Shown one piece after another: positions 8,302 through 51,720 of a DNA stretch of 64,000 nucleotides; position 1 is the stretch's first letter; each line of letters opens with the position of its first letter. The stretch comes from Bremia lactucae (lineage: Eukaryota; Oomycota; Peronosporomycetes; Peronosporales; Peronosporaceae): the NCBI RefSeq assembly GCF_004359215.1, contig NC_090619.1, positions 5,301,736 to 5,365,735 of the forward strand. The letters are read 5' to 3'. Under the pieces are notes generated by a model. The model saw only the letters and a list, made by a program, of their open reading frames with translations, was not told the origin of the DNA and did not search any database. The position numbers were made by a program, and so were the translations under genes.

Positions 8302-9900
8302 TTACGACTGCGCCATATCGACGTTAGCTGCGGCTAGCAATCGAGCGTGCAAGAGTTGGCTCCAAAGTTGTCCGGCCTGATTGAGGCTGTACAGGCCTTT
8401 GCAAAGCTCGAGCACGACATCCTTATTGCGTGTGGCGCTGAGTGTCTTGAAAATTGTCATGCTGCCTTCCATCGCCTGTAGATCATGCAGTAGAATTTCC
8501 AAATGGGTTTTCTTGTATACCTTGAAGTACGTGTCCGGCACCCCTAGCTTGCATGCCTTAAAGTAGGTGTTTAGGACGACTCCGTGCTTCTTCAGCACCC
8601 CAGACTGCTGCAAGCGCCAAATATCACCTTCACAGTCGGCGTATCCATGACGGCCGCGAAGGTACCTCATAACCCTGTTTGTTGTCGCACGCCACAAGTC
8701 TTGCCCTCAGATGCTCGAGGAGGCCGTCAGCATTTGTCTTCGTCCTGTAGACCCACTTCGTGTGCAATGCGTTGCTTCCTGTGGGTCGCTTATTAAGGCT
8801 CCATACGCCATTTTCTTGGAGAGCTTGTAGTTTCTCATGCATTGCTTTCTCTCAGTCATTTCTTTCTGCGCTGCGCATCGCTTCCCTATAGTTTTTGGGA
8901 TCGCGCTCGTACACATGCGCTACCAATTTTTCTTGATGCGCACCTTCGTCTTGTGCTAACTCCTTCTGAACTGGTCACATCTGTCACGACCGTCTGATCT
9001 TCAAATTCGAGTGCGCGTTGAAGCTGACTGTTTTGGTCCACGCTGTGAGTTTCAATATTGCGCCCATGCTGTGTGACCGTGACCTTGTTCGTCTTATGAG
9101 TGGACACCCTACATCCCTTCGTCTTATCACTGCGATCGATGATGACGCCAACTTGTGCCCGTTGCGCTAGTAAGTTCTTTTCGAGGTCCCGGCACACCGT
9201 GCAGATCAATCCAAAAGCAACGATACGACGCAGTTCGGAAGCGTGTTTGGTTAGAGACTCCATCGGCGATGCGCGCTTTGCATTTGCGCTGATAAGCTGC
9301 ATACTCGACTGCGTCCCCCCAAAATGACTTCGGAAGACGACTGGCAAAATCCTGCTGCGCGCCAAGTGTAACATTGTCCTGTGCATGCGCCTCGCCACTC
9401 CGTTTGACGCCAGATTTCTTGCCAAGCTTATTTTCCGCGCGACACCTGTCGACTTGCAGAACAGGTTGACGTTTGCGTACTTACTACCCCCGTATATGCG
9501 AAACACGTGGATATGGCAGTTTAACCGGCGTTCGAAGAAAAACTGAGAGTGCTTAAATTTCTTTTAGCCTTATTCTTCTTAGGCGCCAAAAAGACGCAAC
9601 AGTTGTTCTATTTGTAATATTAAGATCGCAAGATAACGGTTTTCGAGCCGGTTCTTCGGCGTCATCGGCCCTTCAAATCCGAGCAAATTACTCCACCGAT
9701 TCTTACAATGGAGAATTCGCGCCAGTGTATTTCCGCGACTGATTTTTTTCGTCTGCTTTCCCTGCGCACACGCAATAGGAGTCGGCCTCTCTGGTATCCG
9801 TGAGTCGGATGCCGGACGCTGGGTCCTTGGCCATCCTTTCGATGCCGTCGCAAGCGAGATGTCCGAGTCGATGGAGGAAATGTAGGAGTAAGCCAAGCTA
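8302..9900 (-). mobile_element. Degenerate Ty1/copia fragment (integrase to reverse transcriptase)
   Basis: Minus-strand order is copia-like. The pre-integrase and integrase start lies at 9896-9580 (RIGGVICSDLKG, split over two frames). The integrase core and C-terminal part follow at 9506-8886 (NLFCKSTGVARKISLARNLA, then RMHRTMLHLARS). Reverse transcriptase starts at 8842-8630 (HTKWVYRTKTNADGLLEHLR) and its palm continues at 8500-8350 (LELCKGLYSLNQAGQLW). Stops and frameshifts break it throughout, and RNase H is missing at the left end. Confidence 0.85.
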
Positions 9901-29728: not shown

Positions 29729-30797
29729 ATGATTCGTTTATCTCAAAAGTCATGCTTCACCCGCACATTGTCGACCCTATCGTCTGTGAATCCGGTCGGC
29801 ATTATTGGACTAGGACAAATGGGTGGGCGCATGGCCGACAACCTCCGCAAACATGGCTACAACCTCGTGGTATGCGATCCTGTAGCGGCCAATGTACAGA
29901 AGCACGTGGATCAGGGTGCAATTGCCGCTGTCACTGCCCGAGAGGTCGCTGAACAATGCGACACTATCATTACAATGCTGCCGTCCACTGCCACGGTCGA
30001 GAAGGTCTATTTAGGCAAGGACGGTATGCACGAGGTGCTACGTAGCGAGCACTTGCTACTAGACTCGAGTACCATTGACCCGATTTTTACCAAGCAGCTG
30101 AGCAAAGAGCTACACGACCGTGGAGCTACATTCGTGGATGCCCCAGTGTCTGGCGGCGTAGCGGGTGCTCAGAATGGCACATTAACATTCATGGTCGGTG
30201 GTGAGCCAGAGGAGTTCGAACGCGTGAAGCCACTACTTAAAGCAATGGGCAAGAATTTAGTATACTGCGGTGGAAGCTGTAAGTAGTGTATACAAATTGA
30301 TATCTGTTAAAATGATGTGCTGACAGAAAGACTAGCTACTGGCCAAATTGCAAAATTATGCAACAATCTGGCATTGGCCATTCAGATGGCGTCCGTGGCC
30401 GAGGCGATGAATCTTGGCACGACTTTAGGCATTGATCCCAAGATTCTCAAAAATATCATGGATACATCTACGTCTTCATGCTGGTCTTCTCTTGTGTACG
30501 TGACTATATAAAACGTGGGGCGAGACTAAATGTTTTGACAAAAGTACTGATGATTATAGCAACCATCCATACCCTGGCTTAATGGAGAATGTGCCGTCAT
30601 CACATAATTACGAAGGCGGTTTTGTGGTCGGGCTACATCGGAAGGATTTAGGACTAGCCATAGACTGCGCCAAGCAGGCTGAAGTGTCCATTCCTTTGAC
30701 TTGTCAGGTTCATCAGCTTTATAATATGATGGTTGCCGGTGGTCATGGCAAGAAAGACTTTAGCTACATGCTTCAGTACCTCAAAAATGGAAAGTAA
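29729..30797 (+). CDS. HIBADH: 3-hydroxyisobutyrate dehydrogenase, mitochondrial
   Basis: NAD-dependent oxidation of 3-hydroxyisobutyrate to methylmalonate semialdehyde in valine breakdown. Exons are 29729-30278, 30336-30495 and 30560-30797, with introns of 57 and 64 bp (donors GTAAGT and GTACGT), giving 315 residues. The acceptor at 30335 (GACTAG) was chosen because the nearer AG would create a stop at the junction. An Arg/Ser/Thr-rich presequence (MIRLSQKSCFTRTLSTLSS) is followed by the Rossmann motif GIIGLGQMGGRMADNL, the family signature DAPVSGGVAGAQNGTL, the catalytic-lysine block TGQIAKLCNN and the C-terminal GLHRKDLGLA. All expected parts are present. Confidence 0.92.
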
Positions 30798-30898
30798 TGT
30801 AAAATGAATTTGAAAACATGTACAAGGTGTCTACTGCCTATAGCAGCATCGCGCTCACTTTACTTTACTATGTCGCCGTCAATCTTTGCAACTCTTGA

Positions 30899-31198
30899 AG
30901 AGTTGGAGTACGTAATACATCTAATCGCCTTCCACCACCGGCGAGTTGGTTTCATCCAGATCCCAAACAGCTTTACGTTCCACGTTTCTTTCCACCGGCA
31001 TTTATATATCCTTATGCAATTGGAGCTTCATATGAGACTATACGCACTCGCACAGGTTCAGGTGTGCAAACTCAGCTTGAGAGTCTCAGCGACATTGCAA
31101 GGTCAAATCGTGTTTGGATCATAAGTGGAGCGAGAACTGGAGTCATAGGCCCGTTTGAATCATTGCATGAAGTTGCTCTTTGGCCAGAGAGGAGCTGA
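30899..31198 (+). other. Open coding-like stretch without a start, unknown
   Basis: One frame stays open for 99 codons between a TGA at 30896 and a TGA at 31196 but has no ATG. Its content is unusually rich in Pro and aromatics (PRFFPPAFIYPYAIGASYET), then turns helical (LESLSDIARSNRVWII). It ends where the inverted-repeat arm carrying RNA polymerase sequence begins. It may be a fragment of another gene of the same insertion, or chance. No family was recognised. Confidence 0.35.
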
Positions 31199-31667
31199 AG
31201 CTCAAGATGAATTCCAAAAAAGTTGGACAAGTTTTCACAGCAGAACATAAGTCATGCTAGAGAATCAAGTGAAGAGGAAGTTTTAGTCAAGACATGGATT
31301 TTATGAAGTCCACCAGTTGTTGTATGGATGATCTTCCAAAGGTGTATACTGGAATAGCAGACTCGACGAGACACGCTGGCATCATGGGTGTTTTACATGA
31401 TAACACACTCGTAGATGTAAGGCCATTTGAAGAGGAGACTGGAAATGAGGATGATGACCGCAATGCAAGATTCAATTTAGAGCTACGAGAGACGCTTGAG
31501 TATCTGAGTGGATTCATAGATTGTACCTATACACCAACGTTATGCCATGGCGTTCGCATTCGGATACCAACAGAGGCTCTGATAGCACGCGCACATGACA
31601 TCATTGAAGTTTCTACAGCGGATGAATCTGAGTTTGCTTACACAGGTGAATGTCATATCGCTGAAAC
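31182..31667 (+). pseudogene. RNA polymerase subunit-1-like fragment, plus-strand arm of an inverted repeat
   Basis: This segment is a diverged second copy of 32689-33195 in opposite orientation. The shared protein stretch includes STSCCMDDLPKVY and IADSTRHAGIMGVLHD, then FEEETGNEDDDRNARFNLEL. Its left part has stops and frameshifts (31200-31290), while from 31294 on it is open. It lacks the catalytic DFDGD segment present in the other copy and is about 20 bp shorter, because of an indel near 31545. At 31667 it runs in frame into RNA polymerase subunit-2-like sequence, so this is a rearranged pseudogene and not a working gene. Confidence 0.75.
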
Positions 31668-32638
31668 TTTGGAGTATCTTAACAGTAGCCAACCTTGGAT
31701 CTTCCACTTCTGTGGCATTGTAAGTGCAATTCGTTCTGCTAACGTGGTAGAGATGATCTTGATGTGGCTCACAATGAAAGGTCATGAACGCCCAAGTTTG
31801 CATGTATTCGAAGGTAGACGTGTAATCTCAATGGCAATCACACCTGGATGTCTAATGAGACCTGTGTCTTCACTTGAATGTCCGCCTCAAAGATGGGATG
31901 AGCTTGACTGGGTAGACTCACTGACATTCTCAACTCCTGCGATGATGGAACTATATGATTATGAAAGGCCCTCAACAGAGCAACCGCTAGTTTGAGTTTT
32001 GCAAGTCTTTCTCTCATCTTGTGACTTATATCTGCTGTGATGATCCTCCTAGACCCTTGCTCGCATCAGCCATGTCAACACAGGCCATTTGCAAACCAAG
32101 AATCGAGATGATGTCGACAACAACAAGCAGGCACAAGGTACAACCTGTGTTGCAGACAGAATTGATGAACTTGATAGCGTCTGAAGTCGAAGATGTGTCT
32201 TGCCTGTCTGTGCCTGGATTTCCTCTGCTAACTGTTTACATGAATTTGAAGGGCAATTAGGAGGATTCCATTGTGGTTAACACTTCCATTGTAGAGATGG
32301 AAGTTTTCAACCATAACGGCTACGTGCAACATCCATTGCCTCCACGTCGCCCACGCGTGCAAACTGGGGGTAAGCTTGGAGACAAGGATCGTTGGTTCAG
32401 ACCTGCGGACTCAGCTGTAGTCATGGCAGAGGGTGAGAGCAGAAATAAGACTAGTTATGTTCTTGCTTACATGCAGAACTGCAGATTGAGAGTAGGAGAT
32501 AAACTTGCGACTCAACATGGACAGAAATTCACAATTTCCCAGATCCTTGATGACGACGAGATGCCGACCTGCTACGATGAACAGACTGGAGAATCTGCGT
32601 GCTTGCGCATGCTCGTTTATAGTGAATCTGATGATTGA
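31668..32638 (+). pseudogene. RNA polymerase subunit-2 (RPB2)-like fragment, virus-type
   Basis: C-terminal half of the second-largest subunit of a multisubunit DNA-dependent RNA polymerase. In order: a fork-region stretch (HVFEGRRVISMAIT, RWDELDWVDS), the segment with ASAMSTQAI, the EDSIVVNTSIVE block, and the catalytic-loop block GDKLATQHGQKFTISQILDD. Breaks: a 1-nt frameshift near 31985-31991, and a TAG at 32258-32260 exactly where the conserved glutamine of the QEDS motif belongs. The N-terminal half and the usual C-terminal clamp after the DEMP stretch are absent. It is too diverged to be host RPB2, RPA2 or RPC2, and resembles the polymerases of large DNA viruses. Confidence 0.75.
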
Positions 32639-32657
32639 ACGAGAGACATTGGAAAGT

Positions 32658-32695
32658 GTCAGTGTCGTCTAGCGGTTAGGACGCGAGCGTTTCAG
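32658..32695 (+). tRNA. 5' half of a tRNA-Glu(UUC)-like gene, truncated
   Basis: GTCTAGCGGTTAGGAC forms a D arm with a 4-bp stem and carries an A-box-like core. It is followed by CGAGC and the anticodon-loop start GTTTCA, placing TTC at the anticodon. The pattern matches eukaryotic tRNA-Glu. The sequence then switches abruptly into the RNA polymerase inverted-repeat arm: no 3' anticodon strand, T arm or acceptor partner follows. The shared bases GTTTCAG at the junction suggest microhomology-driven joining. It cannot give a functional tRNA. Confidence 0.55.
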
Positions 32696-33927
32696 CGATA
32701 TGACATTCACCTGTGTAAGCAAACTCAGATTCATCCGCTGTAGAAACTTTAATGATGTCATGTGCGCGTGCTATCAGAGCCTCTGTTGGTATCCGAATGC
32801 CATGGCATAACGATCGAATGCGACCCGCTTCAAGTGACGTTGGTGTATAAGTACAATCTATGAATCCACTCAGATACTCAAGCGTCTTTCGTAGCTCTAA
32901 ATTGAATCTTGCATTGCGGTCATCATCCTCATTTCCAGTCTCCTCTTCAAATGGCCTTACATCTACGAGTGTGTAATCATGTAAAACACCCATGATGCCA
33001 GCGTGTCTCGTCGAGTCTGCTATTCCAGCATACACCTTTGGAAGATCATCCATACAACAACTGGTGGACATCATAAAATCCATGTCTTGACTCAGCACTT
33101 TTTCTCCACTTGATTTTCTTGCATGACTTATGTTCTGCTGTGAAAACTTATCCAACTTTCTGGAATTCATCTTGAGCTTTAGCTCCTCTCTGGCCTCGGG
33201 TGAAGATACAACTGCAAAGTGAAGTTCATCACCATCAAAGTCCAGATTCATGCCTTCACACAATTCGGGACTGACACCAATGGTGAGACCATCCCAAGCC
33301 ATGAACCTCACTGCAACAATAGAATGCACTGAAATGACTGGAGCTCTAAGAATCACGCCTAAGTTACCATCTTGCATCGGTCTGAATCTATACATTTCGC
33401 TTTTTCCGAAGACCATCAGGCGTCGACTCACGCATTGGTACCTTCATGCTTCTCATCCAGCGTCTGGGCACAAACACAATCGTTGGATCTTCTGTCCATA
33501 CACAAGTTGTATTGCCTCTGGCACCTATTATTGGACGGAAAGATGTGAACTTCTTACGCAATAGACCTCGCTTACGCATAAGAGTAGAACGAACTCTAAC
33601 TACAAATGTAACACTGTCTATATCTCCAGCAAATAGATCAGCATTGGCAGACGCTCGTTCGTCCTTCACAAATTCATCTTCAGTCACCATGTAACGTGGA
33701 AGTCCAAGCAGTCCTGCGTTCTCGCTTTGTATATGACCTTTACATCTGACATGTCCTTCCACATCACAATTGTTGCTATTCATTGCGTCCTTCTGCACAT
33801 ACTGGATTGTACGTAGCTTCTGGACGTCTAGTTTCTTTAATCCCAGCTTCTGCAATCTAGGTGCAGCCGTTACCAGTCTTCCAGGTGCAACTACACGCTC
33901 AATTGTGAATGGCATTGGATCGCTCAT
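32689..33927 (-). pseudogene. RNA polymerase subunit-1 (RPB1)-like gene, virus-type, broken
   Basis: Largest subunit of a multisubunit RNA polymerase, minus strand, starting at ATG 33927. The N-terminal part has a clamp zinc-site remnant (NCDVEGHVRCKGH). RKRGLLRKKFTSFRPIIGAR corresponds to the switch region that reads GKRVDFSAR in cellular enzymes. After a frameshift near 33420-33430, GVILRAPVISVHSI and the metal-binding MNLDFDGDELHF follow. The N-terminal clamp is much shorter than in cellular RPB1. The gene is cut at 32689, where it meets the half tRNA, so everything after the active site (bridge helix, trigger loop, jaw) is missing. The catalytic aspartates are still encoded. Confidence 0.78.
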
Positions 33928-33957
33928 GTTACGTTGTTAGCTTTCTAAGTTTTTAAA

Positions 33958-34203
33958 CTACTTGTACGGTGATGGCAACAGCGAACGACTGCGAGAACAA
34001 AAAGGTCTGAGACATTCTGGTGCTTCCACATTCACATAGGAGATGGAGCATTGGAGTTTCTTCAGCTTACGATTCATCTTGTACTTGAATCCGTCAAGTA
34101 TTAGGGAATCAAGGATAACAAAGCTATCTGCCACAGCCCTGGTTACTCTTTCTCCAGATACAAGAGGGCACTGATCATAAAGCTGCAGAGATGTAATGAG
34201 CAT
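33958..34203 (-). CDS. Small unknown open frame upstream of the RPB1-like pseudogene
   Basis: An 81-codon frame from ATG 34203 ends 30 bp before the ATG of the RPB1-like gene on the same strand. The content is plausible protein (VADSFVILDSLILDGFKYKM, then basic KMNRKLKKLQ) but no family is recognised. The tight spacing is unlike the host genes here and like the packing of large DNA viruses. It could be the C-terminal end of a longer gene that has been cut, or a chance frame. Confidence 0.4.
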   Translation of the reverse strand: MLITSLQLYDQCPLVSGERVTRAVADSFVILDSLILDGFKYKMNRKLKKLQCSISYVNVEAPECLRPFCSRSRSLLPSPYK

Positions 34204-34216
34204 TTAAATCGGATCT

Positions 34217-34259
34217 AATGCCTCTTCCAGCGTTGTTATACAACGCTGGAAGAGGCATT
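34217..34259. repeat. Perfect 20-bp hairpin with 3-nt loop
   Basis: AATGCCTCTTCCAGCGTTGT is followed by TAT and the exact reverse complement. It lies 14 bp outside the start of the small minus-strand frame, at the right edge of the RNA polymerase-bearing block. Stems of this size between genes are the transcript-end signals of some giant viruses (the Mimivirus hairpin rule). A small palindromic mobile element is the alternative. Confidence 0.92.
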
Positions 34260-34721
34260 TAAGTTGAGCTAATTTTTTGCTTTTCAGTCGAGTTCATTTT
34301 AGCCCTAGATTATCTATTATTCCTCTTATGGAATAATATTTACATAAAGGGTGCATGGATTGCTTGAGGCGTAAAATTTGGTAAGATACGGAAATGCTGA
34401 TGTATCGCGACAGAATTCGCTACAAGCCAAATGTCTTTCAACGTATCCGAGACATCATCCGTATTGACCGGACAATTCAATGAAATAATCCGATGATATT
34501 TAGCTGCTCTCCACAGATGATCATCTAAGCAATGACACCGCTAAGAATTTTGAATTTTTTCAAATTTCTTGATTTGAGACTTAATTGCCCTGCAGGCACT
34601 CAATACCTATTGCAATGCCTACTATCGATGCTTGCAGTTGTTTGCGTCTTTTAAAGGTACGAGAACGCGTGACTTCAAGTATATCAATTTACATATTATA
34701 TTTTTTCGTATGTACGTATTA
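34260..34721. other. Intergenic, nothing recognised
   Basis: AT-rich spacer between the virus-like block and the TAF1B gene. No coding frame stands out, so the outer edge of the insertion cannot be placed exactly. Confidence 0.5.
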
Positions 34722-36692
34722 TTATATTTTGTCGTCCCGCTTTCGCTTCGAATGCCGCTGACGAGATGACGCATCGACTATAGTGGGCGTCAAGGGAGCT
34801 TTTGCAGCTTTCCACTTGGCATGGCCTGCTCGTAAAAAATCAGTGTGAGTGGTAGTGCGCTCAAAGTGGTAAATGAGACTCTTCATCCGCTTGTCAAGTT
34901 TGGTCAGGATTGGTAGCACTTGGGCAATTGGCGCGTCAATTTTTCGACAAAGCAGTTCAAGCACATTTTCATACGCTGAATGCAAAGCTGTGCGATGATC
35001 ATTGGTATATACGGGATAAAAGAAAGCATCCATGATCTTTTCTGTATCATTGACGCTATCTCTGTTGCCATCTCGAGATCGTAATCGCGTCATACGCTGC
35101 TCAATTTCTACATCAGTCTCCGCGAGGACTCCGTCGACGTGTTTAGCTGGATACGCGTAAAGAGGATTCGTCATCAATTTCTTAGTGTGCATTTGTCTCA
35201 CTGCTTTTTCGTTCTCTTGAATGCGTTTCAGCTGCTTCATATGCTCTTGAAACTCTTCAGGTATGGCAGACTTGGTAGGATCAATAAAAATCTGTTTGGC
35301 AAATGAAGCAAACGAGTCGAGATCACGCCGAAGAAGACGCTGAGCCTCGTGCACTGCAGCAACGGGTGGTGCATTGTATTGGACCCCTTCCGTATTAATT
35401 TCTTCATTATCGTCCTTGGTATGATGCCGATCATAGATCCACTCATGCCAATTGGCACACATTTTAATCGCGACAACCAAGTGAGCTACAAGACCCACTT
35501 CAGATTCGAGAATTCCATCGACAATGGCTCGATCGTTTGGCGTGTGTGTAAGCTTCAATCGAGGGTACCCATCGACTTCCGATTGCAGCAGCAGCGGCAA
35601 TTCCGTCATGGGCCCTTTGACATTCATCATGCCAGTAATCCATAAGAAATTACGATACACTCCTTTAGGAAAGCCCATCGTAGCGCAAATGCGGTGAGCT
35701 GCAAGCGGAACGTTTAAAGGAGGTAGACGCAAGCCCATGTGATACTGAAGATGGTGAGCCGAGTACGCAATTTGAACGCTACTTGCTCGGTGACGGCGCA
35801 TGAAGGACTGAAAGAAACTGACAATAAATTTCACCGATTCTCGCACGTCAGGGGCGTTAGCACAACACGTGGCCAGCGAATTATGATACGGAATGACACC
35901 CGTGGCAACCCATTCCGCAAAATCACTTGGCAACAGTCCTAAATTTAAAACTCGCGATGCAAGCATTAAAATTCCGACTAAATCGACGATTGAAAACATA
36001 TTGAGCTCATCAAATCGTCGACGTGGAGGATCTCTAACTCGGCTTTTTCGTCGAGGTTTGTCGACGTTTTCCTCTTCTTCTTCCACCGTCTTGTCTTCCT
36101 TGCTTTCTGCCTCGTCACCTCGTTTTTTCTCCCATTCTGCATCCCATTGTTCTAACAAGTCGAATGTTGTGGCTGGATCCATGCTTACTTCTTCTTTCTT
36201 TGTATAGTACATGAAAAACTCATTGTAACAACGCAAGAGCGGTTTCGTGCCTTTTACGCCCCACGTTTGTAAGAATTTAAACCACAGCTCTTTCACAACT
36301 CTCGGATACTCGTCTTTGGGAAAGGTACTGCTTCCTACTCGCTCAATTAATGCGTGCGCCATGGAATTTAAGACCATTTGTGTGGCAATGACGCAGTCTA
36401 ATAGCTCTGGCAGCTTTGGTACCTCCTTTTCAAGCTTTTCTTTCTTAATTTGGGTTCTTTGTTCGGTCGGAACCGTACTATTGTCTTGACTCTTCTTCTT
36501 CGTGCGCACGACACGGCGCTTCAGCGTCTTCAGCACTGTTGCGATGTCCATACCCGTGTCCTCAATGGTGTGCGTTTCATTCCGCGCCTGCAAGAAGTTT
36601 TGCGTCCCACAGAGCTCACACACCATCTCCCCAAAGTAATTTTCGCTAAAAAACGTGTCGCCAACGGCGCCGCAATTTTGGCATTCCAACAT
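34722..36692 (-). CDS. TAF1B: TAF1B/Rrn7-type RNA polymerase I initiation factor
   Basis: TFIIB-related subunit of the core factor that recruits RNA polymerase I to rDNA promoters, nuclear. It is an intact 656-residue single exon. It opens with an RRN7-type zinc ribbon using Cys4, Cys7, Cys25 and Cys28 (CQNCG, then CELCG). Two cyclin-like helical regions follow, with the typical LLDCVIATQMVLNSMAHALI and FLQTWGVKGTKPLLRCYNEF blocks. A Lys/Glu-rich acidic insert lies at about residues 195-225, and the C-terminal end is basic. Identification rests on the ribbon plus the LQTWG block. Human TAF1B (about 590 residues) and yeast Rrn7 (about 510) are somewhat shorter. Confidence 0.85.
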   Translation of the reverse strand: MLECQNCGAVGDTFFSENYFGEMVCELCGTQNFLQARNETHTIEDTGMDIATVLKTLKRRVVRTKKKSQDNSTVPTEQRTQIKKEKLEKEVPKLPELLDCVIATQMVLNSMAHALIERVGSSTFPKDEYPRVVKELWFKFLQTWGVKGTKPLLRCYNEFFMYYTKKEEVSMDPATTFDLLEQWDAEWEKKRGDEAESKEDKTVEEEEENVDKPRRKSRVRDPPRRRFDELNMFSIVDLVGILMLASRVLNLGLLPSDFAEWVATGVIPYHNSLATCCANAPDVRESVKFIVSFFQSFMRRHRASSVQIAYSAHHLQYHMGLRLPPLNVPLAAHRICATMGFPKGVYRNFLWITGMMNVKGPMTELPLLLQSEVDGYPRLKLTHTPNDRAIVDGILESEVGLVAHLVVAIKMCANWHEWIYDRHHTKDDNEEINTEGVQYNAPPVAAVHEAQRLLRRDLDSFASFAKQIFIDPTKSAIPEEFQEHMKQLKRIQENEKAVRQMHTKKLMTNPLYAYPAKHVDGVLAETDVEIEQRMTRLRSRDGNRDSVNDTEKIMDAFFYPVYTNDHRTALHSAYENVLELLCRKIDAPIAQVLPILTKLDKRMKSLIYHFERTTTHTDFLRAGHAKWKAAKAPLTPTIVDASSRQRHSKRKRDDKI

Positions 36693-51620: not shown

Positions 51621-51720
51621 NNNNNNNNNNNNNNNNNNNNNNNNNNNNNNNNNNNNNNNNNNNNNNNNNNNNNNNNNNNNNNNNNNNNNNNNNNNNNNNN
51701 NNNNNNNNNNNNNNNNNNNN
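51621..51720. other. Assembly gap (100 N)
   Basis: Exactly 100 N, the usual placeholder for a gap of unknown length. It falls inside the LTR element, where protease, reverse transcriptase, RNase H and integrase would be expected. Confidence 0.98.

Follow-up and report, generated by a model that had tools for sequence, protein, structure and literature searches.

The window analysed here is a 64,000-nucleotide stretch of the genome of the lettuce downy mildew Bremia lactucae (C10:5301736-5365735, in a 7.1-Mb scaffold of a 115.9-Mb assembly). Broken RPB2 and RPB1 pieces, derived from the two large subunits of a multisubunit RNA polymerase (RNAP), make up a mosaic at positions 30,908-34,262 that is part-duplicated in inverted order and flanked by two intact host genes. 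The pieces belong to one divergent polymerase family and are interspersed with host DNA. A first-pass annotation made from the sequence alone had placed broken polymerase genes here, and six-frame reading and profile searches confirmed them. Pfam RNA_pol_Rpb2_6 matched window:32273-32635:+ with 27.2 bits (E = 2.7e-6; cut-off 23.4) and RNA_pol_Rpb1_2 matched window:32679-33431:- with 31.5 bits (E = 2.6e-7; cut-off 25.3). No RNAP match was found in the other eight open reading frames (ORFs) given to the same search. The DFDGD and GDKLATQHGQK motifs lie in the matching ORFs, and the polymerase pieces are intronless, non-host and placed between host genes, as had been stated. The features of the locus are as follows, with the flanking genes last (aa, amino acids; dN/dS, ratio of nonsynonymous to synonymous substitution rates; P numbers are family proteins used as tblastn queries).

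30908..31165, plus strand: RPB2 N-terminal fragment, family residues ~57-155 (P0005, 29% over 100 aa, E = 5e-6; P0006, 34% over 70 aa).
31182..31667, plus strand: plus copy of the inverted duplication, the end of an RPB1 fragment joined to RPB2 (repeat search I1-I5; 460/485 aligned bases identical to the minus copy; dN/dS of 0.67 between copies).
31339..32587, plus strand: RPB2 fragment, family residues ~201-611, holding GDKLATQHGQK; in two frames, broken by a frame change and an in-frame stop (P0007, 38% and 48%, E = 8e-96; Pfam RPB2_6, 27.2 bits on 32273-32635).
32596..32688, plus strand: piece captured from a host tandem array of tRNA-Val genes, with the 5' part of one gene and the flank before it (at least 22 matches on C13 at 79-95%; ARAGORN; alignment).
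32689..33038, minus strand: RPB2 fragment, minus copy of the duplication (P0007, 55% over 82 aa, the RPB2 match covering ~32,745-33,038; repeats).
33033..33909, minus strand: RPB1 fragment from near the N terminus through the DFDGD active-site motif, fused to RPB2 at ~33,033; in two frames, broken by a frame change (P0134, 38% over 164 aa; P0140, 43% over 123 aa; Pfam Rpb1_2, 31.5 bits).
33947..33957, minus strand: motif TTTAAAA(N)[CG]TT ahead of the RPB1 ATG, a candidate promoter that also stands ahead of genes of the other Bremia lineage described below.
33961..34203, minus strand: 81-aa ORF at the right end of the relic (no Pfam match; no match to the element proteins tried).
34217..34259, no strand: perfect palindrome with 20-nt arms and a 3-nt loop, at the right border of the relic (repeat search I6; itself only among the genome matches listed).
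29729..30797, plus strand: host flank, beta-hydroxyacid-dehydrogenase-like gene of several exons, presumably 3-hydroxyisobutyrate dehydrogenase (Pfam NAD_binding_2, 181.5 bits on 29729-30283; further exons read from the sequence).
34722..36692, minus strand: host flank, Rrn7/TAF1B-like Pol I factor gene, open frame of 656 aa (Pfam Rrn7_cyclin_N, 39.5 bits).

The inverted duplication is 0.49 kb long and pairs 31,182-31,667 with 32,689-33,195. The inverted repeat that had been read as RPB1-like is itself an RPB1-RPB2 junction at ~33,033. The joint is present in both inverted copies and is therefore older than the duplication. A copy on scaffold C12 (L037 5139-5672, minus strand) is 95% identical over 201 bases and, judged by eye against the family, stays RPB1 where the window switches to RPB2. 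The fusion is thus a rearrangement, and an ancestral fused RPB1-RPB2 gene was rejected on the same comparison. The duplication, the junction at the repeat and the captured tRNA-Val fragment at 32,596-32,688 are details beyond the first-pass annotation. ARAGORN found six tRNA-Val genes in L038 (C13:2117001-2121000), a tandem array with a unit of ~228 bp and mixed anticodons.

The relic sits in the shared 3' intergenic space of the two convergent flanking genes, so neither gene is broken. The sole run of N in the window is at 51,621-51,720, which means that the relic does not sit at an assembly gap. Base composition is no marker of the relic (0.446 versus 0.454). A DNA search of the genome with the window piece gave, among the matches listed, only C12, itself and tRNA-type sequences. 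Window 30,700-34,500 was mapped by tblastn with 35 RPB1, RPB2 and family-B DNA polymerase (PolB) family proteins and 13 further ORFs from a related element; no match to PolB or to any of the further ORFs was found in this interval.

That multi-gene element, of the same family, lies elsewhere in the genome. Pfam searches of the assembly detected further RPB1 and RPB2 genes of the same odd kind, with an 865-aa RPB2 open frame on scaffold C148 and a 638-aa RPB1 on C8. The C8 copy is 12.3 kb of element between two 100-N gaps (C8:2317856-2330154; L034:1856-10000 and L035:1-4154) and contains a 626-aa frame whose end runs into a gap, a truncated RPB2, PolB with one stop codon, a D5/P4-type helicase in three pieces, RPB1, and further ORFs of 359, 297, 203 and at least 175 aa. 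C148:1-5043, on a scaffold of 44,132 bp, holds a 240-aa ORF, RPB2 and PolB. C125 (96,943 bp) has pieces of PolB and of the 626-aa frame, a common repeat, and ORFs of 440, 219 and at least 127 aa. RPB2 overlaps PolB, and PolB and the helicase are divergent with ~55 bp between their start codons. Additional element fragments occur on C94, C107, C147 and C71 and at C8:1316064-1316610, the last consisting of scrambled small pieces. A 265-nt inverted repeat on C8 (L034:3585-3849 and 8881-9145) stands directly ahead of the 626-aa frame, a probable capping gene, and of RPB1.

Several other observations were made in these searches. On C94 the same 265-nt repeat is followed by the sequence that lies outside the other arm, an arrangement resembling a terminal inverted repeat of the element. 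The 240-aa ORF on C148 (L029:1-720) is convergent with RPB2, has no Pfam match and is a candidate for a further element gene. A weak RPB2 domain-6 match of 29 positions at C7:1299579, in a repeat-rich region (L036, C7:1294001-1304000), is perhaps another small fragment. Paired, equal-scoring RPB1 domain-2 matches were found in L022-L026 (C8:4004335, C9:2327263, C164:398874 and 405476). The C8/C9 pair has 1539-aa frames and the C164 pair, 6.6 kb apart, has 1822-aa frames; these are possible duplicated host RNAP genes or uncollapsed haplotypes.

Assembly gaps delimit the C8 and C148 copies, a pattern that would also arise if a foreign contig had been joined into a scaffold by contamination or mis-assembly. 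The window relic, however, has no gap nearby, holds a host tRNA-Val fragment and lies within a 7.1-Mb scaffold, and other fragments are found on further scaffolds. Contamination or mis-assembly is an extremely improbable explanation, and for the window segment it was rejected on the tRNA-Val fragment inside it and the distance from any gap. The 12.3-kb stretch on C8 may be either an extrachromosomal molecule scaffolded into the chromosome or a true insertion.

Relatives of the element proteins were sought among 5.77 billion clustered proteins with a method that needs shared 5-residue words, so distant links may be missed. RPB2 of C148 had 8 matches: one at 98%, Peronospora belbahrii at 65%, Clydaea vesicula at 47%, and five more. 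RPB1 had 13, including Bremia itself and Lobulomyces angularis at 48% (25,856-bp contig). PolB had at least 400 matches; among the best 120, approximately the first 16 are the family (32-98% identity) and the named ones beyond are archaeal polymerases at ~30%. These best 120 include Rhizopus arrhizus and Geranomyces variabilis, the latter on a contig of 25,877 bp, and the Bremia lactucae proteins in the PolB search were CCR75_003546 and CCR75_009509. The named hosts of the family are Bremia lactucae, Peronospora belbahrii, Clydaea vesicula, Lobulomyces angularis, Geranomyces variabilis and Rhizopus arrhizus, placing relatives in another downy mildew and in fungi. The Peronospora belbahrii and Clydaea vesicula contigs are 30,110 and 26,321 bp long. 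Both recur for PolB and RPB2, a 21,394-bp contig recurs for PolB and RPB1, and a 13,089-bp contig recurs for all three, which suggests physical linkage of the genes. Outside the Bremia scaffolds C148, C125 and C8, the family contigs range from 2,130 to 30,110 bp. The window pieces are 29-56% identical to the family.

The RPB1 assignment was examined by profile and by structure. In the RPB1 alignment only Rpb1 domain 2 was matched at E 0.01, in 13 of 13 rows, and complete members are ~600 aa long. The family profile identifies the largest subunit of RNAP, with a best score of 48.7 bits. AlphaFold modelled the RPB1 family with low confidence (predicted local distance difference test 62, predicted template modelling score 0.41). 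Foldseek with this low-confidence model returned RNAP largest subunits first, an archaeal RNAP having E = 5e-9 with a template modelling score of only 0.17 over the query.

The RPB2 tree has 18 rows: 8 element, 3 host (Pol I, II and III) and 7 giant-virus-like. The last are 7 of 14 IMG/VR loci; L138, L140, L141 and L143 were left out as at least 95% alike to used rows, L146 as having the same size and scores as L145, together with L151 (820 aa) and, by choice, L147 (2,120 aa). Because likeness to host Pol II was the basis for choosing the viral loci, the tree has no RNAPs of pox, irido or asfar type. The element rows form one clade with 100/100 support, ~5 changes per column from everything else. 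Support is lower elsewhere in the tree (75/83 for the giant-virus-like rows together, 63/44 for the host rows), and the rows include a long host sequence and three of unusual residue composition. Element RPB2 aligns with the host rows mainly at 23-29% over ~210-440 aa toward the C terminus, plus short scattered segments. A host Pol I, II or III paralogue was rejected because the element RPB2 clade stands apart from the three host rows at 100/100. The RPB2 profile scored 73 bits against Pol II in the PDB, 71 against archaeal RNAP, 61 against Pol III, 53 against Pol I and 49 against the vaccinia enzyme, which indicates no special poxvirus likeness.

Giant viruses carry PolB, a D5-type helicase, RPB1, RPB2 and a capping enzyme. 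The element has PolB, its own RNAP, a helicase weakly assigned to the D5 type and a probable capping enzyme, all of giant-virus type, and the first-pass annotation had proposed a relic of a large DNA virus of the kind found in Phytophthora. Reportedly, Sharma in 2014 had found an asfarvirus-like endogenous virus of Phytophthora. Giant-virus insertions in oomycetes, including asfarvirus-like RNAP and capsid genes in Phytophthora, are described in the available text of PMC8204020, which assigns them to Asfarviridae and reports none in downy mildews; PMC5294986 also treats such insertions. The insert of Phytophthora and Globisporangium (Hannat 2021, PMC8204020) resembles the relic as broken, non-host RPB1 and RPB2 in an oomycete genome. 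It differs, on the available text, in lying near Asfarviridae, in including a capsid gene and in its reported absence from downy mildews, and the protein search gave no sequence relation between the two. None of the named matches (2 of 8 for RPB2, 2 of 13 for RPB1) came from Phytophthora, Globisporangium, Pythium or an asfarvirus, leaving the Phytophthora connection without support. The element RNAP is extremely divergent, its RPB2 lies far outside the seven giant-virus-like rows, and the relatives' contigs do not exceed 30,110 bp. A relic of a giant virus (Nucleocytoviricota), possibly asfarvirus-like, is therefore improbable, and an asfarvirus-like origin was rejected on the named protein matches and the RPB2 tree, in which asfar rows do not figure.

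Searches of viral and other collections gave no close relatives either. The IMG/VR scan with RPB2 returned no relative. With PolB, no close relative was present among the 80 loci kept of at least 110; 72 of the 80 were at or below 33% in the best segment and the other 8 matched over short segments. With RPB1 there were 8 weak loci and no close relative. A GTDB scan with RPB2 returned none. Plasmid and phage collections gave 26 and 7 records, all below 60% and none a relative, those listed being 24-30% over about one-third of the query and either bacterial rpoB or unannotated. The first-pass annotation allowed that the lineage might be undescribed, and no description was found by titles and abstract openings in the open-access literature, a scope outside which fall most subscription journals and all of bioRxiv.

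Capsid, A32 and VLTF3 genes of giant-virus type were sought in the genome. The major capsid protein models PF16903 and PF04451 had no match, and their controls were empty too. The A32 packaging ATPase model PF04665 had 0 matches with a control positive in 2 of 14 genomes, and the VLTF3 model PF04947 had 0 matches with an empty control. The suggested search for capsid, helicase and VLTF genes elsewhere in the genome thus yielded the weakly assigned D5-type helicase and, with these controls, no major capsid protein or VLTF3. Seven ORFs of 175-440 aa in the element had no match above cut-off in family libraries (three of the seven also against further libraries). They leave room for a capsid gene, and the compact layout with RPB2 overlapping PolB is virus-like; both fit a particle-forming DNA virus belonging to no known family. 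The capsid models gave no match, with empty controls that let divergent capsids escape, and IMG/VR gave no close relative among the loci listed. A virus of this kind is possible but doubtful.

The replication and transcription genes distinguish the element from the yeast cytoplasmic linear plasmids, which the first-pass annotation had also named. The element PolB scores 156.7 bits against PF00136 and 12.9 bits against PF03175, which places it with the RNA-primed type. Against PDB profiles the top match is DNA polymerase delta, and archaeal, alpha and other family-B polymerases also match (best 60 of 125). The helicase scores 20.8 bits against TIGR01613, far under the cut-off of 108.7, and 24 bits against a PHROG primase, so its D5/P4 assignment is weak. 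The 626-aa frame, of which a 570-aa part was examined, is probably a capping enzyme, with triphosphatase, guanylyltransferase and methyltransferase motifs read by eye. The C8 and C148 copies, like the relatives, encode RPB1 and RPB2 as two distinct proteins.

The comparison with the yeast plasmids is closest in gene logic. As in Kluyveromyces lactis pGKL2, a small DNA element encodes a DNA polymerase, a multisubunit RNAP, a helicase and probably a capping enzyme of its own, and apparently no capsid genes. The yeast plasmid helicase is of another type than D5/P4, the class to which the element helicase is weakly assigned. As read from the sequence, the element lacks the two defining features of the yeast plasmids, a protein-primed polymerase and a fused RNAP subunit. 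The available text of PMC6211774 describes a yeast virus-like element with its own RNAP, capping enzyme and helicase, in which the beta and beta-prime parts of the RNAP are fused, whereas RPB1 and RPB2 are separate here. Cytoplasmic linear plasmids are treated through their protein-primed polymerase and are known only from Saccharomycetales according to the available text of PMC10328495; the present family instead has oomycete and chytrid hosts and one Rhizopus. That it is a distant branch of the yeast plasmids (pGKL and similar virus-like elements) is very improbable, and a yeast-type linear plasmid was rejected as the family on the polymerase type and the separate RNAP genes.

Selection was estimated between the Bremia copies. 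The dN/dS of PolB is 0.10 for C8-C148 (464 codons), C8-C125 (257 codons) and C148-C125 (257 codons), and that of the RPB2 copies is 0.05 (276 codons; 2 stop codons left out). The low ratios indicate that the RPB2 and PolB copies diverged mostly while functional, which points to several insertions from living elements rather than duplicates of one dead copy. The inverted copies in the window have a dN/dS of 0.67 (159 codons). The C12 piece gave 0.27 over 67 codons and 1.25 over 17 codons, too few to use.

Five trees of short pieces compared the window relic with subclades of the family. Window sequences fell outside the Bremia-C148/Peronospora/Clydaea RPB2 subclade in 3 of 3 trees and outside the Bremia-C8/Lobulomyces RPB1 subclade in 2 of 2. 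The exact sister of the relic differs between pieces, and supports are often low. Of four RPB2 comparisons, three had P0007 as the best match of the window piece and one had P0003; for RPB1, the best match in each of two comparisons was P0134 or P0140. The position outside both subclades and the separate best matches indicate that two or more lineages of the family have reached Bremia. The relic is best read as debris of a second lineage beside the C8 and C148 elements, either virus or capsidless plasmid.

The motif TTTAAAA(N)[CG]TT is common to both lineages. In the window lineage it precedes RPB1; in the other it precedes RPB2 and smaller ORFs. Non-redundant element sequence totalling 21.8 kb contains 7 occurrences. 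In four of them an ATG that starts a frame of 100 codons or more follows within 35 nt, against a background of 10.8% (P = 0.0036 in a post hoc test). Outside the relic, none of the 4 occurrences in the window is placed in this way. No control word of the same letters (0/300) reached 4, although these words lacked the optional base of the motif, which favours the motif. The motif may serve as a promoter.

The window segment is probably debris captured from an extrachromosomal DNA element of ~25-30 kb that belonged to an undescribed self-transcribing family. The element would carry an RNA-primed-type PolB, a D5-type helicase, a two-gene RNAP (~600-aa RPB1 and ~820-aa RPB2) and probably a capping enzyme. 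It would replicate itself and transcribe itself from its own promoter without the host nuclear polymerases. Fragments of its DNA and a piece of a host tRNA-Val gene would have been joined end to end into a break between the convergent host genes, after which the captured DNA would have been part-duplicated in inverted order and have decayed. The tRNA-Val fragment, the absence of the fusion joint from the C12 copy and the scrambled pieces at C8:1316064-1316610 suggest capture of this kind.

A number of points weigh against this interpretation. The C8 copy is bounded by 100-N gaps and the C148 copy by a contig end and a 32-kb gap, so no complete element was read, and the contigs that carry the relatives may each be part of a larger viral genome. 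We infer the extrachromosomal state, and the element may be a virus with an unrecognised capsid; the absence of a capsid rests on searches with empty controls, and a divergent capsid would be missed. For the probable capping ORF, Pfam gave no match, NCBIfam and PHROG gave only noise below their cut-offs, and the PDB gave nothing relevant. The dN/dS of this ORF, 0.19 and 0.29 (347 and 164 codons; 1 stop left out each), is above that of RPB2 and PolB. Three of the 7 motif occurrences follow ORFs rather than precede them, and the motif was first spotted by eye ahead of three genes, two of them among the four counted, which makes the test post hoc.

A broader proposal is put forward tentatively, at somewhat below even chances. 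The family may be a hitherto unrecognised lineage of small, capsidless replicons of 25-30 kb that replicate and transcribe themselves in oomycetes, chytrids and Mucoromycota, with a very deep-branching two-gene RNAP and a DNA polymerase of the RNA-primed type. Its cytoplasmic-plasmid lifestyle would have evolved independently of the yeast killer-type plasmids, and its debris would be scattered through downy mildew chromosomes. If this is true, small DNA replicons that transcribe themselves, among which PMC10328495 knows the cytoplasmic linear plasmids from Saccharomycetales only, extend to oomycetes and to further fungi, and a deep RNAP branch new to science, multisubunit but with minimal subunits, would be open to study. 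It would also qualify the statement, printed in the available text of PMC8204020, that downy mildews are without such viral sequences. The element would be resident in a major lineage of plant pathogens, where its nature as virus or plasmid would be directly testable.

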